A stretch of 53,755 bases of DNA from the NCBI RefSeq assembly GCF_009857845.1, contig NZ_WWEQ01000017.1:1-53755 (forward strand). The letters run 5' to 3'. Position numbers and translations under genes: made by a program. The stretch's first letter is position 1. Each line of letters begins with the position of its first letter. The notes under the pieces were generated by a model, which was not told where the DNA came from, made no database searches, and saw only the letters and a list, made by a program, of their open reading frames with translations. The DNA is from Brevibacterium rongguiense. GTDB lineage: Bacteria; Actinomycetota; Actinomycetes; Actinomycetales; Brevibacteriaceae. Below, one piece after another: positions 18,016 to 23,934 of this stretch.

Positions 18016-18016
<1 letters not shown>
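15497..18016 (-). CDS. pheT: Phenylalanyl-tRNA synthetase beta subunit
   Basis: Beta chain of the (alpha-beta)2 class II phenylalanyl-tRNA synthetase, carrying editing and tRNA-binding parts. The 839-residue protein shows the N-terminal EMAP-type tRNA-binding domain (from about residue 40), the B3/B4 editing region, the B5 domain, the inactive catalytic-like core, and the C-terminal ferredoxin-fold anticodon-binding domain (ending near GATVRS). The ATG shares one base with the pheS stop (TGATG), so the chains are translationally coupled. Length is typical of actinobacterial PheT. Confidence 0.97.
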
Positions 18017-19155
<1,139 letters not shown>

Positions 19156-19244
19156 GCGAGTGCGCCCCGGTGGGCGCGGCGCCGTCCGCGTCGGCGACGG
19201 TGCCCCGCCGGATGCGCGGCGGGCGGGCCGGGCACAATGGGCGC

Positions 19245-19907
19245 ATGTCCGCTCCCGCCGTGCCTCGGCCACCGCTTGTCAGCCTGCCTGCCCTCACCCC
19301 CGGCCTGCCCGGTGACCTGGGGCCCGAGGACCGGGTGGACGGCCTCGAGTTCGCCGACCTCGAGCTGGGCCCGGGCAGCGCCCGGGCCGCCAGCGTGCTC
19401 GACTGCCGGTTCGCCTCGTGCGAGTTCGCCGGCCTCGATCTCGAGCTCGCCGCGCTCACGGGCTGCGCCTTCGACCGCTGCGCCGCGGCCGGCCTGGCGC
19501 TCGTGCGCTCCCGGCTGTCCAATGTGCGCTTCGACGGGTGCCGGGTGGGCAGCCTCGAGGCCTACGGCGCCGCGTTCGAGCGCGTCGAGTTCGCCGCGTG
19601 CCGGCTGGGGTATGTGAACCTGCGCGGGGCCGTGCTGCGCGATGTGCGCTTCGAGCAGTGCCGGATCGGCGAGCTCGATCTGGGCCAGGCCACGGCCGCG
19701 CGCGCGGCGTGCCCGCAGTCCGAGCTCGAGGCGCTCGAGGTGGTGGGGGCAGCGCTGGCCGACGTCGACCTGCGCGGCGCGAGCATCGGGCGCATCACGG
19801 GGCTGCGCGGGCTGGCCGGCGCCACGCTCGACGAGCAGCAGGTCGCCCTGCTCGCACCGGCCCTGGCCGCGGAGTTCGGCATCCGGATCGGCGATCCCGT
19901 GCCCTGA
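19245..19907 (+). CDS. Pentapeptide-repeat protein
   Basis: 220 residues, probably cytoplasmic (no signal peptide or membrane segment). From about residue 40 to 190 it runs as degenerate pentapeptide repeats with a bulky or leucine residue every fifth position (for example VRFDGCRVGSLEAYGAAFER and VDLRGASIG), which fold as a right-handed quadrilateral beta helix. Many such proteins have no known role; some protect DNA gyrase, but nothing here shows that. A CACAAT -10-like hexamer ends six bases before the ATG and there is no good ribosome site, suggesting a leaderless message. It is divergent from pheS and convergent with the surface-protein operon. Confidence 0.8.
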   Translation: MSAPAVPRPPLVSLPALTPGLPGDLGPEDRVDGLEFADLELGPGSARAASVLDCRFASCEFAGLDLELAALTGCAFDRCAAAGLALVRSRLSNVRFDGCRVGSLEAYGAAFERVEFAACRLGYVNLRGAVLRDVRFEQCRIGELDLGQATAARAACPQSELEALEVVGAALADVDLRGASIGRITGLRGLAGATLDEQQVALLAPALAAEFGIRIGDPVP

Positions 19908-19962: not shown

Positions 19963-20021
19963 GGCGCCTGCGCGGCGAGCTGGGACTCAGCGGCGAGCTT
20001 TGAGTCAGCGCCGCAGGCGCC
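19963..20021. terminator. nested hairpin between convergent genes
   Basis: Perfect 10-bp arms GGCGCCTGCG (19963-19972) and CGCAGGCGCC (20012-20021) enclose a second 6-bp pair, GACTCA (19984-19989) with TGAGTC (20001-20006). It lies between the convergent pentapeptide gene and the LPXTG-type gene, overlapping the last codons of the latter, and fits a bidirectional terminator. A 9-base G run (19956-19964) precedes it. Confidence 0.55.
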
Positions 20022-20835
20022 TGCGGCCCAGGACGACGAGCAGCAGGCCGACGCCCACGCACGCCGCCGCGGCGAGCAGGGTCGACAGCGCCTGCGCGCC
20101 CGTGCGCGGCAGCGGGGAGCCGGGGCCGGGGTCCGGGCCGACCTCGGCCGGGCGATTCGGGCCGGCGGTGGCGGTGGGGTGCCCTGGTTCGGCTGCGGTG
20201 GCGCTCGGCCCGCTGGACGGTCGGCGGTCGGGCGTGTCCGAGGACGGCTGGGGCGGGCGCGAGTGCGATGACGTCGGTGCGGGGCTGCTCGGGCTGGGAG
20301 CAGGTTGGTCAGACCCCGACAGCAGCAGCGAGAGCGCCACGCGGATGTCTGCGTCTTCGCTGCGGTTGCCGGACCCCAGCGGCAGTGCGGCCGTGACGCT
20401 GGCGCGGGCGACATGTCCGGGTGCCAGTGTGCCGAGGTCGATCGTCAGCGGCTCGTGGCGCAGCGCAGCCGCGGTGCTGTGGCGGCTGCCGGCCCGAAAC
20501 ACCAGGTCGTCGTCGAAGCCACGCGGATTGCGGCCGCCGTTCCAGGCCATCCTGAGCGCCGCCCGGAGGGGCTGGTCGCTGACATTCTTCACCCACAGGG
20601 TCTCCGTCTCCTCAGCGCCGGGGGCCATTCGCGGCTTCCGGGAGAAGAGCGGGTGCGGCAGGTTCGCCGCGAAGTGCGTGCCGTCCACCGAGACGCGGGC
20701 ACGAGGGGCCGCACCGGCACCGGAAGCCGCCATCGCCACTCCCCCCGTGCCGACGCCCGCTGCCCCGCCGACGAGCAGGCAGGCGAGCGCCGCGCTGCTC
20801 GCGGCGCGCTGGACGCGGCGCCCCCTAGCTCTCAC
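20005..20835 (-). CDS. LPXTG-type wall-anchored protein of the SipW-like operon
   Basis: 276 residues, predicted exported and sortase-anchored. It has a basic N-terminus and a hydrophobic signal segment (about 12-38), a beta-rich domain (about 45-175) with the APGAEETETLWVKN pattern seen in TasA-like exported proteins, a Pro/Ser/Thr stalk (about 176-240), the sorting motif LPRTG (242-246), a hydrophobic helix (249-270) and an RRRLRR tail. The GTG at 20835 is chosen because GGGAGG lies five bases upstream; it overlaps the signal peptidase gene by 11 bases. No sortase is encoded in the window. It is the last gene of the operon and likely the wall anchor for its products. Confidence 0.8.
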   Translation of the reverse strand: MRARGRRVQRAASSAALACLLVGGAAGVGTGGVAMAASGAGAAPRARVSVDGTHFAANLPHPLFSRKPRMAPGAEETETLWVKNVSDQPLRAALRMAWNGGRNPRGFDDDLVFRAGSRHSTAAALRHEPLTIDLGTLAPGHVARASVTAALPLGSGNRSEDADIRVALSLLLSGSDQPAPSPSSPAPTSSHSRPPQPSSDTPDRRPSSGPSATAAEPGHPTATAGPNRPAEVGPDPGPGSPLPRTGAQALSTLLAAAACVGVGLLLVVLGRRRLRR

Positions 20836-21475
20836 GACCGCCTCCCTGCCGGGCGGGCCGGTTGGCGGCAGGGGTGTGCGCGGACCGGCCGAGGGCATCG
20901 CTCGGGGCTGATTCCCTGGGCTCTGCGCTCGGCGCGCCTGAGCCCGGCCGCCCCCGCGGCGCGCGGGCAGAACGGCGCTCGACCATCAGGCGGATGACCT
21001 GCCACGCGGCATAGAGGAGGGCCAGCACGCCCAGCGCGATGATGCCGCCCAGCTTCGCCTTGCCGCCGATCGCCAGCGCGAGGCGCCCGACGAACGGCAG
21101 GTGGTAGACGAGCGTGCCGCGCACCTGCTTGCGCGCCACCGGCTCCGGGTCCGCGGCGTTGTTCGCATCGCCCTGCGTGACGTAGGAGGGGGTCCCGCTG
21201 CCGTCCTGCGAGACGCCCACGACGCGGTGGGTGACGAGCGTCGGGTCGTCGGGGTTCGGCATGAACGTGATGACCTGCCCGGCGGAGATCTGCGTGCTCT
21301 CGTCGATGGGCTTGACGTAGACCTGGGAGCCCGGCGGGATCGTGGGCTCCATGGAGCCGGTGAGCACGGTCAGCGGCACCCACCCGCACAGGCGGGGGAC
21401 GATGACCATGGCCAGCAGCAGGGCGGCCAGCAGAGCCGCGAGCCCCCACAGGACCGCCCTGCCGATGCGCGCCAT
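20825..21475 (-). CDS. SipW-like (ER-type) signal peptidase I
   Basis: Membrane serine protease of family S26. The 216-residue protein has a first transmembrane segment (about 8-28), the nucleophile Ser41 in TGSMEPTIPPG, and the GDANN box (102-106) near the end of the catalytic domain. The usual Lys general base is replaced by His83 in VTHRVVGV, which marks the SipW/archaeal/ER type rather than housekeeping LepB. A second transmembrane segment (about 144-163) and a basic, disordered tail of about 50 residues follow. The ATG shares one base with the stop of the upstream exported-protein gene, and three neighbours carry alternate signal peptides: it is very likely their dedicated processing enzyme. 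Confidence 0.9.
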   Translation of the reverse strand: MARIGRAVLWGLAALLAALLLAMVIVPRLCGWVPLTVLTGSMEPTIPPGSQVYVKPIDESTQISAGQVITFMPNPDDPTLVTHRVVGVSQDGSGTPSYVTQGDANNAADPEPVARKQVRGTLVYHLPFVGRLALAIGGKAKLGGIIALGVLALLYAAWQVIRLMVERRSARAPRGRPGSGAPSAEPRESAPSDALGRSAHTPAANRPARQGGGRES

Positions 21476-22650
21476 CACCACGTGGGCCCCGGCATGTTCG
21501 GCTGGCCGGTGACCGCGTCCGGCACGGTTGCGGTGCCCGCGCACAGGTTGCCGTTGTTCACGCCGTTCCAGCTCAGCGTCCATGTCTTCGACGCGGCGAA
21601 TCGAACCGGCGAACCACCGTTCGTACCGGCGAGCACGCCGACGACGAGGAAGGCCCGCTTCACCGGGCTGGCGGTGGTCCCACCGCTCATCTGTGCGCGG
21701 TCCACCCCGATCGAGCGTGCACCGGTGGGGATATTCGTGCCGTTGAGTTTGCCCTCGTAGCTGTAGAGGTTCGACGTCAGTTTGCTGAAGCTCTGGCCGT
21801 TGGCGCTCGTCCACAGTTCCCAGTGGTCGACAGCGCTCACGGTGCTCGCAGAAACTGAACTCTCCCACTCCCCCAACCAGTTCCAGTAGAGCCGACTGCG
21901 CGAGCCATCTCGTACACACCCGGGCACGGCACTGGCGTCCGCCTTTGCCGCATTGGGCACCGGCTGCGGCAGCCCGATGCGGTAGTACGCGGGAACGGTG
22001 CCCGACTCGGCGCCGGTGGTGGTGGAGTACTGCTGCTCCGTCTTGTACGCGGTCTGCACCTTGATGCCGCCGCCGGCCAGCTGCTTGAGGATCTCCGCTC
22101 GCTGCGCGCCGTTGTCGGAGCCCAGGGCCAGCGCGAAGTCGACGCAGACGTGCCGGGTCTCCCCCGCTGCCAGGGTGACGGCCGTGCCGGCCGGAGCGGT
22201 GTACTTCCCGCCCGAGGCGGCTGCGCTGTCCGCGCCCTTGATCGGCCAAAGCTCGGTGCGGGTCCAGTCGGTGCAGTCCTTGCCCTGCGCCGCGAGGTTG
22301 TACGTGATCTTCGCGCGGAAGACCGGATCGAGCGTTTTGTCCGGATAGGCGTAGCGGGAGGAGACCGTCGAGGACTGGATGAGCACGCGGCGGCTGAGCG
22401 TCCGCGAGTCGTTGACGAGCGCGAAGTCCGTGTCGTTCCACACGCGGCCGGCGGGATCGTTGTTCGCTCTCTGGGTCGAGGCATCCGCCGCGGAGATCGT
22501 GAAACCGTCTGAGGTGCCCGAGGCGCCGTCGCCGCCGGGCCGGGCGAACCACTTCGCTGCGGTGCTGCCCTGGGAACCCAGCACCGCAGCGCACAGGAGC
22601 AGCAGGATCGCGACGGCGGTGGCGGGGACCACCCAGCTGCGTCTGCTCAT
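21475..22650 (-). CDS. Large alternate-signal-peptide exported protein
   Basis: 391 residues, not assignable to a characterised family. It has a short basic N-terminus, a hydrophobic stretch (about 6-27) and GSTAAKWF (about 28-35), the A-K-W pattern shared with the other exported proteins of this operon and typical of SipW-processed precursors. The rest is polar and beta-prone, rich in Ser, Thr, Gly and Asn, with four cysteines (in GKDC, HVCV, PGCV and GNLC) that could form two disulfides. There is no membrane anchor or sorting signal, so it is probably released or assembled. It starts 50 bases after the previous gene's true stop and ends in the TGATG junction with the signal peptidase. A structural or matrix role is an inference from context. 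Confidence 0.75.
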   Translation of the reverse strand: MSRRSWVVPATAVAILLLLCAAVLGSQGSTAAKWFARPGGDGASGTSDGFTISAADASTQRANNDPAGRVWNDTDFALVNDSRTLSRRVLIQSSTVSSRYAYPDKTLDPVFRAKITYNLAAQGKDCTDWTRTELWPIKGADSAAASGGKYTAPAGTAVTLAAGETRHVCVDFALALGSDNGAQRAEILKQLAGGGIKVQTAYKTEQQYSTTTGAESGTVPAYYRIGLPQPVPNAAKADASAVPGCVRDGSRSRLYWNWLGEWESSVSASTVSAVDHWELWTSANGQSFSKLTSNLYSYEGKLNGTNIPTGARSIGVDRAQMSGGTTASPVKRAFLVVGVLAGTNGGSPVRFAASKTWTLSWNGVNNGNLCAGTATVPDAVTGQPNMPGPTW

Positions 22651-22700
22651 GGTGTGCCTTCCTGCTGGGACTGCGGGGGTGCGGCGGGGGCGGGCGGGGC

Positions 22701-23319
22701 TCATCCGGCCTGGGTGACGCTGACGGACAGCGCGCCCAGGCTGTAGGCCTTCGATGCGTAGGCCGCCGGCCACTGCTTGGGGGTCGTCACGGTCGTGACG
22801 GCGCGCCAGGTCGCCTGCTGGGCGCTGGCCGGATCGCTGCCGCGCACGCGCACCGGCGGGGTGACCGCCGTTCCGGCGCGGGTGAGCGTCGAGGTGACAG
22901 TCGTCTCGGGGGGGCAGCCCGGCCTTGGCGGGCTCGCCGTCCAGGGTGACGTCGGCGGCGAGGTTGTCGCCCGCCGCGCTCACCGTGAACTCGTTGGCGA
23001 TGACGATCCGGTCACCGGGCACCAGCGCCACGTCGGCCAGCTGGGCGGGGGTGAACGACCGGCACTCCTGGTAACCCGCGGCCGGGGTGCAGGCCGTGCC
23101 CGTGTCGAGCGCGGTCCGCTGACCGGCGGGGATCATGCTCTGGAGTTCGTAGCCCACCCGCGTGGACGTCGCGCTCAGGTGGCCGGTTCCGATGTCTGCC
23201 GAGCCGACCGGGCTCGCGGCTGTCCAGCGGGCGAGCGTGGTGCCGGTCGGCCCGAGGAGCAGCAGCGCGCAGCCGGCCGCGCAGGCGGCGGCCCACGGCC
23301 GGATGCGGCGCAGTCCCAT
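22701..23319 (-). pseudogene. Alternate-signal-peptide exported protein, frameshifted at a C7 tract
   Basis: The gene encodes about 205 residues if one base is removed. The first part (from the ATG at 23319) has a signal segment ending LARWTAASPVG, followed by IGTGHLSATS and LVPGDRIVIANEFTV, matching the TasA-like pattern of its neighbour at 23353. At 22908-22914 a run of seven C on the coding strand throws the frame; with six, it continues sensibly (ETTVTSTLTRAG onward) to SVSVTQAG and a stop at 22701. With seven, reading continues without a stop and joins the next gene in frame, giving a 614-residue fusion. It could be a sequencing error, a pseudogene, or a phase-variable tract. Confidence 0.75.
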
Positions 23320-23352
23320 GGGAGTCCTCAGGCTGTGGAACGGCGGTCAGGG

Positions 23353-23934
23353 TCAGGCCGGGTTGTTGTCCTGGATGAGCTCGACCTTCGTCTCCTTGAG
23401 GTTGACGCTGCCGTCCTCGCCCTGGGATTTCCACCAGTTGGACTTGTCGTCCGCCGGCTTCGCGCCATCGGTGGTGAGCGGGAATTCGATGACGGCGGAG
23501 ACGTTCACCGCGGTCGAATCGCCGGACTTGACCTGCTTCGCCGCGTCCTCGCCTCCCACCTTCGTCGTGACCTTGACGATCTTCGCCAGGTCGCCGGTGA
23601 CCGTGTTGGCCGTGTTGACCTTGAGCGTGGCGGTGAGGTTGTCGCCCACGAGGTCCGGGGTGACCGTCGCGGTGTAGGTGACCTTGTCGCCGGGGACCAT
23701 CTTGAACGCGGTGGGGTCGATGGTCTTGTCGCCGTGGTTGGAGTCGACCCACTTGGGGTTGGCGACCGTGAAGTTCAGGTGGCCGGACTGGAGGTTGCCC
23801 CCGCCGATCTCCTGCTCCTCGTACCACTTGGCGAACGTCGTGGCGCCGCCGGCCAGGAGGGCGATGCCCACGGCGGCCGCGGCGACGGCCTTGGCTGCGC
23901 GGCGGTTCTTCTTGGGCTGTGCGTGTGTGCTCAT
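23353..23934 (-). CDS. Alternate-signal-peptide (TasA/camelysin-like) exported protein
   Basis: 193 residues, first gene of the operon. The N-terminus has a KKNRR basic block, a hydrophobic stretch (about 15-34) and TTFAKWYEE, the form of signal recognised by SipW-type peptidases. The mature part begins with GGGNLQSGHLNFT and continues MVPGDKVTYTATVTPDLVGD, a pattern of TasA/CalY-type beta-sandwich proteins that polymerise into fibres. No cysteine, no C-terminal anchor. It is highly charged and lysine-rich for this genome. By analogy it may be the major fibre subunit; there is no direct evidence for polymerisation. A -10-like TAGAAT lies about 80 bases upstream. Confidence 0.82.
   Translation of the reverse strand: MSTHAQPKKNRRAAKAVAAAAVGIALLAGGATTFAKWYEEQEIGGGNLQSGHLNFTVANPKWVDSNHGDKTIDPTAFKMVPGDKVTYTATVTPDLVGDNLTATLKVNTANTVTGDLAKIVKVTTKVGGEDAAKQVKSGDSTAVNVSAVIEFPLTTDGAKPADDKSNWWKSQGEDGSVNLKETKVELIQDNNPA

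Follow-up and report, generated by a model that had tools for sequence, protein, structure and literature searches.

Five closely packed genes (g1 to g5) lie on the minus strand at 20005-23934 of the window, the whole 53,755-nucleotide stretch analysed, which is all of contig C87 (NZ_WWEQ01000017.1) of the 179-contig draft assembly of Brevibacterium rongguiense. The set probably encodes a thin protein fibre that is related to TasA, known from Bacillus biofilms, and tethered to the cell wall. All five genes listed in an earlier note on this DNA, made from the sequence alone, were found at that place: g1 (23353..23934), g2 (in two pieces, 22915..23319 and 22701..22913), g3 (21475..22650), g4 (20825..21475) and g5 (20005..20898). 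The overlap between g3 and g4 is a single base, and g4 and g5 also overlap; the listed ATG start of g5 reads through the end of g4, and a GTG start near 20835 is likelier, judging from the genes of the relatives. The G+C content of the operon resembles that of its surroundings.

A SipW-type signal peptidase beside its likely substrates

The product of g4 passes the TIGR02228 model (SipW/ER-type signal peptidase I; 81.2 bits against a cut-off of 51.85), and its Ser41, His83 and Asp103 are unchanged across three species, in agreement with the earlier assignment of the gene to this type from His83. Signal peptidases of the SipW/ER type have a histidine where LepB has a lysine. Its score against the Bacillus SipW equivalog NF046067 (84.4 bits) is well under the cut-off of 190, and the genome also encodes two ordinary LepB peptidases, on contig C108.

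The 193-aa exported protein encoded by g1, the proposed major filament subunit, passes TIGR04089 (exp_by_SipW_III, alternate-type signal peptide; 109.1 bits against a cut-off of 60) and is 63-64% identical to its orthologues. The second TasA-like subunit, g2, begins at 23319 and goes out of frame near 22914, in a C7 tract (22908-22914), which bears out the frameshift claimed before. The first piece scores 45 bits against TIGR04089, under the cut-off of 60; the second piece, delimited by frame and GC3 analysis and running in the other frame to the stop codon, gave no relevant family match in the profile search and aligns with the C-terminal part of g2 in the relatives. The gene is intact in the two congeners used for comparison, B. 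gallinarum Re57 (G010) and B. luteolum CCUG 46604 (G020). The large exported protein announced for g3 is present, with 391 residues; searches for it found nothing in Pfam at E 1 and nothing meaningful in NCBIfam, it is 34-39% identical to its orthologues, and its structure model is unreliable (pLDDT 41). We propose that it is a variable end subunit or an adhesin.

Sequence comparison points to a moderate link of g1 and g5 with the TasA/camelysin proteins. The g1 protein itself scores 17.0 against PF12389 (Peptidase_M73/camelysin), short of the gathering score of 22.5, and the same family is matched by 8 of 17 g1 homologues at E ≤ 0.1 (best 4e-7). A profile of eight g5 homologues matches the archaeal protein AbpX (9sj2, E 0.0012; 9rhp, E 0.003). 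The model of mature g1 has a pLDDT of 78.7, with residues 1-13 below 50; the first four rows of a Foldseek search with it were CfaB, the PapG pilin domain (twice) and, at rank 4, the TasA fibre, all with low TM-scores, and AbpX (7ueg) stood at rank 24. In a second structure comparison the TasA fibre was within the background.

A shared N-terminal motif absent from the anchored protein

Just after their signal segments g1 and g3 carry A-K-W and g2 carries A-R-W, so that the A-(K/R)-W motif reported as common to three proteins is indeed seen in all of them. With the ends of the signal segments placed by eye, [A/S]-x-[W/F/Y] stands at this position in 17 of 17 aligned homologues of g1, 8 of 8 of g2 and 8 of 8 of g3, and in none of the eight g5 homologues; the motif occurs elsewhere within the first 100 residues in four of these eight, once inside the hydrophobic segment and once about a dozen residues beyond it. 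In the class-wide loci described below, this strand is frequently xW(S/T/N)D, with (S/A/T)G several residues further on; the script that extracted these strands demanded an aromatic residue, whose presence there is consequently no evidence.

In TasA the donor strand comprises residues 28-38, starts from the first mature residue, has F29 as its second, and slots into the subunit that follows (PMC9674648); TapA has the same motif and is thought to supply the first strand (PMC9674648, PMC10151520). By analogy, the first 13 residues of mature g1 (KWYEEQEIGGGNL; 23791..23829, minus strand), set apart by their low pLDDT and equal in place to the TasA strand, may be an N-terminal donor strand. On the same analogy, g1, g2 and g3 could each donate a strand and g5 could not, which would make g5 the natural terminal acceptor, with a sorting signal that would tie the fibre to the wall.

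A wall-sorting signal with sortases encoded elsewhere

The earlier note described g5 as an LPRTG protein with a TasA-like beta domain. The sorting signal holds: LPRTG stands at residues 263-267 (20098..20112, minus strand), is invariant in three species, and takes the protein narrowly past TIGR01167 (16.5 against a cut-off of 15.9), with 12.9 against Pfam Gram_pos_anchor, under the 20 required. The domain may be TasA/AbpX-like, the AbpX match giving it a moderate link to TasA. Sortase hits were obtained in all eight genomes tested; the two of B. rongguiense lie on contigs C102 and C150, and none on the contig of the window. The operon is therefore not self-contained, contrary to the earlier claim; with sortases and LepB encoded elsewhere in the genome, housekeeping enzymes could see to both the export and the anchoring of g5. 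For a sortase-polymerised pilus a pilin sortase would be expected in the gene cluster, and no sortase hit falls there in this genome.

The gene set is kept as a unit in relatives

By single-sequence search, g3 was detected in 3 of the 60 genomes of the family, B. rongguiense included, and all three have the order g1-g2-g3-g4-g5. The operon of B. gallinarum and B. luteolum is not at trmH-pheS; its neighbours there are a glutaminase-like gene on one side and, 2-3 kb off on the other, a ferredoxin-NADP reductase-like gene, both named from a reading of their translations. A distant version, in which g3 was assigned partly by size and place, occurs in three more Brevibacterium genomes (G034, G042 and G006; loci L051, L052 and L050) in the order g1, g2, g3, LPXTG gene, g4; G331 (locus L056), a genome from another family of the order, has g1, g2, g3 and g4. 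A three-sequence g3 profile run over 394 genomes of the class matched five: B. rongguiense, G020, G237, G331 and, weakly, G308, whose locus has no TasA-like gene. The set is thus present as a unit in relatives, one of the points on which the earlier note had staked its proposal. It sits at different chromosomal sites, which would fit transfer or relocation, with losses possible.

The two congeners differ sharply in one part of the operon. Their aligning DNA around and in the operon is 92-98% identical and dS is about 0.05 in two flanking genes; g4 and g5 are 90% identical as proteins (dS 0.19) and g1 86.5% (dS 0.18), whereas g3 is 52.9% identical, with dS 0.80 and dN 0.41. The DNA of g2 is 93-100% identical over the first 150 codons (in blocks of 25 codons) and then abruptly 52-68%. 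The replaced block takes in the last part of g2 and the whole of g3 (locus L005, 7500-9125, in B. gallinarum against L006, 7670-9195, in B. luteolum), and this sharp break near codon 150 fits a swap of the g2 end and g3 by allele replacement. Two other pairs speak against a general rule of g3 swapping: between G034 and G042 g3 is 94.5% identical (dS 0.14), like its neighbours, and between G034 and G006 both g3 (58%) and g5 (50%) are more diverged than g1 (78%) and a downstream gene (88%).

Association across the class

TIGR04089 is present in 12 of the 60 family genomes, and with a line drawn at 75 bits the TIGR02228 matches on or above it (17 hits) are confined to these 12 genomes and G050; the 75-bit line was chosen after the scores were seen, the genomes are related and hence not independent, and weaker TIGR02228 matches occur in all 60. 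Over the class, TIGR04089 was matched in 39 of 394 genomes, 33 of them over the cut-off. Neighbourhoods were taken from 30 of these 39 genomes plus G000, G020, G237 and G331, leaving out weak or cut matches (G089, G169, G230, G410 and G417), and together with further loci of the family gave 48 loci for a six-frame scan, of which 47 were counted after L057, with no TasA-like gene, had been dropped. A SipW gene (profile E ≤ 1e-20) lies within 5 kb in all 47; 14 of these loci had contributed to the profile and 33 had not. Strict LPXTG open reading frames (ORFs) number 23 in the 373 kb within 4 kb of a TasA-like gene and 2 in the remaining 269 kb. Because they cluster there and yet at least one is found in only 21 of the 47 loci (26 are without one), a wall-anchored partner of the SipW/TIGR04089 loci is recurrent, not universal.

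Further proteins deserve mention. In Brevibacterium there were 27 TIGR02228 hits over the cut-off (58-78 bits; among them hits in G005, G002 and G021) that lie in open frames of 387-601 codons, and 26 of them are in genomes without TIGR04089; they are perhaps a second, larger SipW-type peptidase, frame length alone being no proof of an extra domain. Some TasA-like genes have nearby a longer predicted protein, of 335-698 aa, that includes a SipW-like domain (L053, 5328-6413; L090, 8536-10632; L103, 9358-10365), the SipW part being followed in L053 by a second exported-looking part. Three Brevibacterium loci have a predicted protein of 694-719 residues directly before g1 (L047, 1190-3280; L048, 8529-10613; L049, 1042-3201), which in L047 reads like a VWA adhesin; the arrangement in the three is g1, SipW, a second TasA-like gene, a gene for 228-231 aa and an LPXTG gene.

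Chromosomal setting

On one side the operon is flanked by a TrmH/SpoU-type methyltransferase gene (end 24157) and on the other by pheS (18016-19059). It does stand between trmH and pheS, as noted before; that this order is generally conserved could not be upheld, because among the 29 relatives looked at (loci L117-L145) trmH adjoins pheS in 10, with alignment ends 68-229 bp apart, and was not found within 1.5 kb upstream of pheS in the other 19 (one ending at a contig edge). In these 19 relatives another insertion or rearrangement may occupy the place. Between pheS and the operon lies a plus-strand pentapeptide-repeat gene (19065-19907; Pentapeptide_4, 5.3e-21), whose protein had no match in the stretches beside pheS of the 29 relatives.

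Discussion

The earlier note inferred that the operon builds and tethers a surface filament or matrix. What stands of this is that a peptidase of SipW type lies next to the proteins it probably processes, that it has a wall-anchored partner and that the set is kept as a unit; the link to TasA and camelysin is moderate. On balance we think it somewhat probable that the five genes specify a wall-tethered surface filament belonging to the TasA/camelysin (donor-strand) class. In such a fibre g4 would cleave g1, g2 and g3 at A|x-W, freeing an N-terminal strand with its aromatic residue at position 2. Shaft subunits, g1 and also g2, would each lend this strand to the next, and g3, combining such a strand with a large extra part, would sit at one fibre end as a TapA-like initiator or tip. 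With no such strand and an ordinary signal peptide, as judged by eye, g5 could only accept a strand; it would close the other fibre end, and a sortase whose gene lies elsewhere in the genome would join it to the wall. A fibre of this kind might serve in adhesion or in biofilms. A further step is possible, and we put it forward tentatively: a two-ended Gram-positive donor-strand pilus, comparable in its logic to chaperone-usher pili but working without an usher, with g3 (exchanged between two close species along with the g2 end) as variable donor-only tip, a TasA-like shaft and g5 as acceptor-only base welded to the wall by a housekeeping sortase. It would be a recurrent actinobacterial appendage, because SipW with TIGR04089, accompanied by an LPXTG ORF in 21 of the 47 loci, recurs across the class.

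A polymer need not be formed at all: g1, g2 and g3 may each be secreted or displayed at the surface on their own, having no more in common than a private signal peptidase, and g5 may be a lone wall protein. For this view it counts that the fibre is deduced here from genes and that the structure comparisons gave no clear answer, with low TM-scores or values inside the background. The fixed gene set across species and sites, the N-terminal strand motif present in three proteins and not in the anchored g5, and the camelysin matches of the g1 homologues are harder to reconcile with unconnected proteins, and we regard this explanation as unlikely. The locus could also be a remnant in this genome, perhaps no longer working, which would be compatible with a wall-fastened filament in the relatives. 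The broken frame of g2 in its C7 tract would fit decay; the other four frames are open, nevertheless, two relatives have intact g2 homologues, and the break may be a read error given the 179-contig draft, so that we consider a remnant unlikely.

Alternatively, g3 may be an effector or a recognition protein on display (an adhesin, or one for phage contact or for telling self from non-self), with the TasA-like proteins merely holding it. In favour of this is the replacement of g3 and the g2 end in one pair of closely related species, where g3 is 53% identical and has a dS of 0.80, two flanking genes having about 0.05. Against it, family searches found no known effector domain in g3, and the G034/G042 pair has no such jump (94.5%, dS 0.14); we consider this role distinctly improbable. 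As for a sortase-polymerised pilus with unusual signal peptides, the operon has its LPRTG protein and sortase hits were found in 8 of 8 genomes tested, but the sorting motif is in g5 only, this genome has its sortase hits away from the contig of the operon, and the SipW-dependent BsaA of Clostridium perfringens is reported to polymerise without the neighbouring sortase (PMC7395162); we hold this to be very improbable.

The filament reading has several known parallels. Like the B. subtilis tapA-sipW-tasA operon, the set places a SipW-type peptidase beside exported substrates, and in both the major and minor subunits have an N-terminal strand, here a proposed one, with an aromatic residue at mature position 2. 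It differs in its second TasA-like protein, the large g3, the LPRTG protein and a g4 far under the Bacillus SipW cut-off; in the accessible sources on B. subtilis no sortase-anchored subunit is described, and TapA appears under the name of an anchoring protein, with a reported association with the membrane. First named the anchor of TasA fibres, TapA is cast by later work as an initiator (PMC9674648, PMC10151520). At the sipW-bsaABCRSD locus of C. perfringens a beta-rich matrix protein, BsaA, is secreted and polymerised in a SipW-dependent manner, as is proposed here; unlike g5, BsaA is reported to have no LPXTG motif and to be mainly outside the cell (PMC7395162). B. cereus resembles our locus in its two TasA-like subunits and accessory protein (TasA, CalY and CapP), all said to be SipW-processed, and differs in being reported as sortase-independent and in transcribing capP apart from sipW-tasA, whereas here the LPRTG protein is in the operon (PMC13082335).

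The archaeal bundling pilin AbpX was matched by the g5 profile and appears in the list for the g1 model, with weak sequence similarity. To our knowledge, no wall sorting motif is expected in archaeal AbpX.

TasA-like systems are phylogenetically widespread according to a review (PMC10903470). The literature found on SipW and TasA, as far as its accessible text goes, concerns Bacillus, C. perfringens and archaea. Membership of g1 in TIGR04089 tells its export class only, and no actinobacterial paper was found in the open-access literature under the names or accession of this family. Among the open-access matches listed, none was recognisable in its accessible text as dealing with a SipW locus of actinobacteria that includes an LPXTG subunit, and earlier mention of homologues is possible. 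The earlier remark that an actinobacterial version is poorly described is in keeping with this, the families themselves being catalogued in NCBIfam.

In the actinobacterial class these proteins are annotated mostly by their signal peptide, and what is known of TasA fibres concerns mainly their place in the matrix. The swapped block of the g2 end and g3 hints at a pressure from outside the cell on the exposed part of the structure. The combination of SipW/TasA logic with a sortase-anchored subunit in one gene set would offer a direct and testable answer to how such a fibre is attached to the cell.
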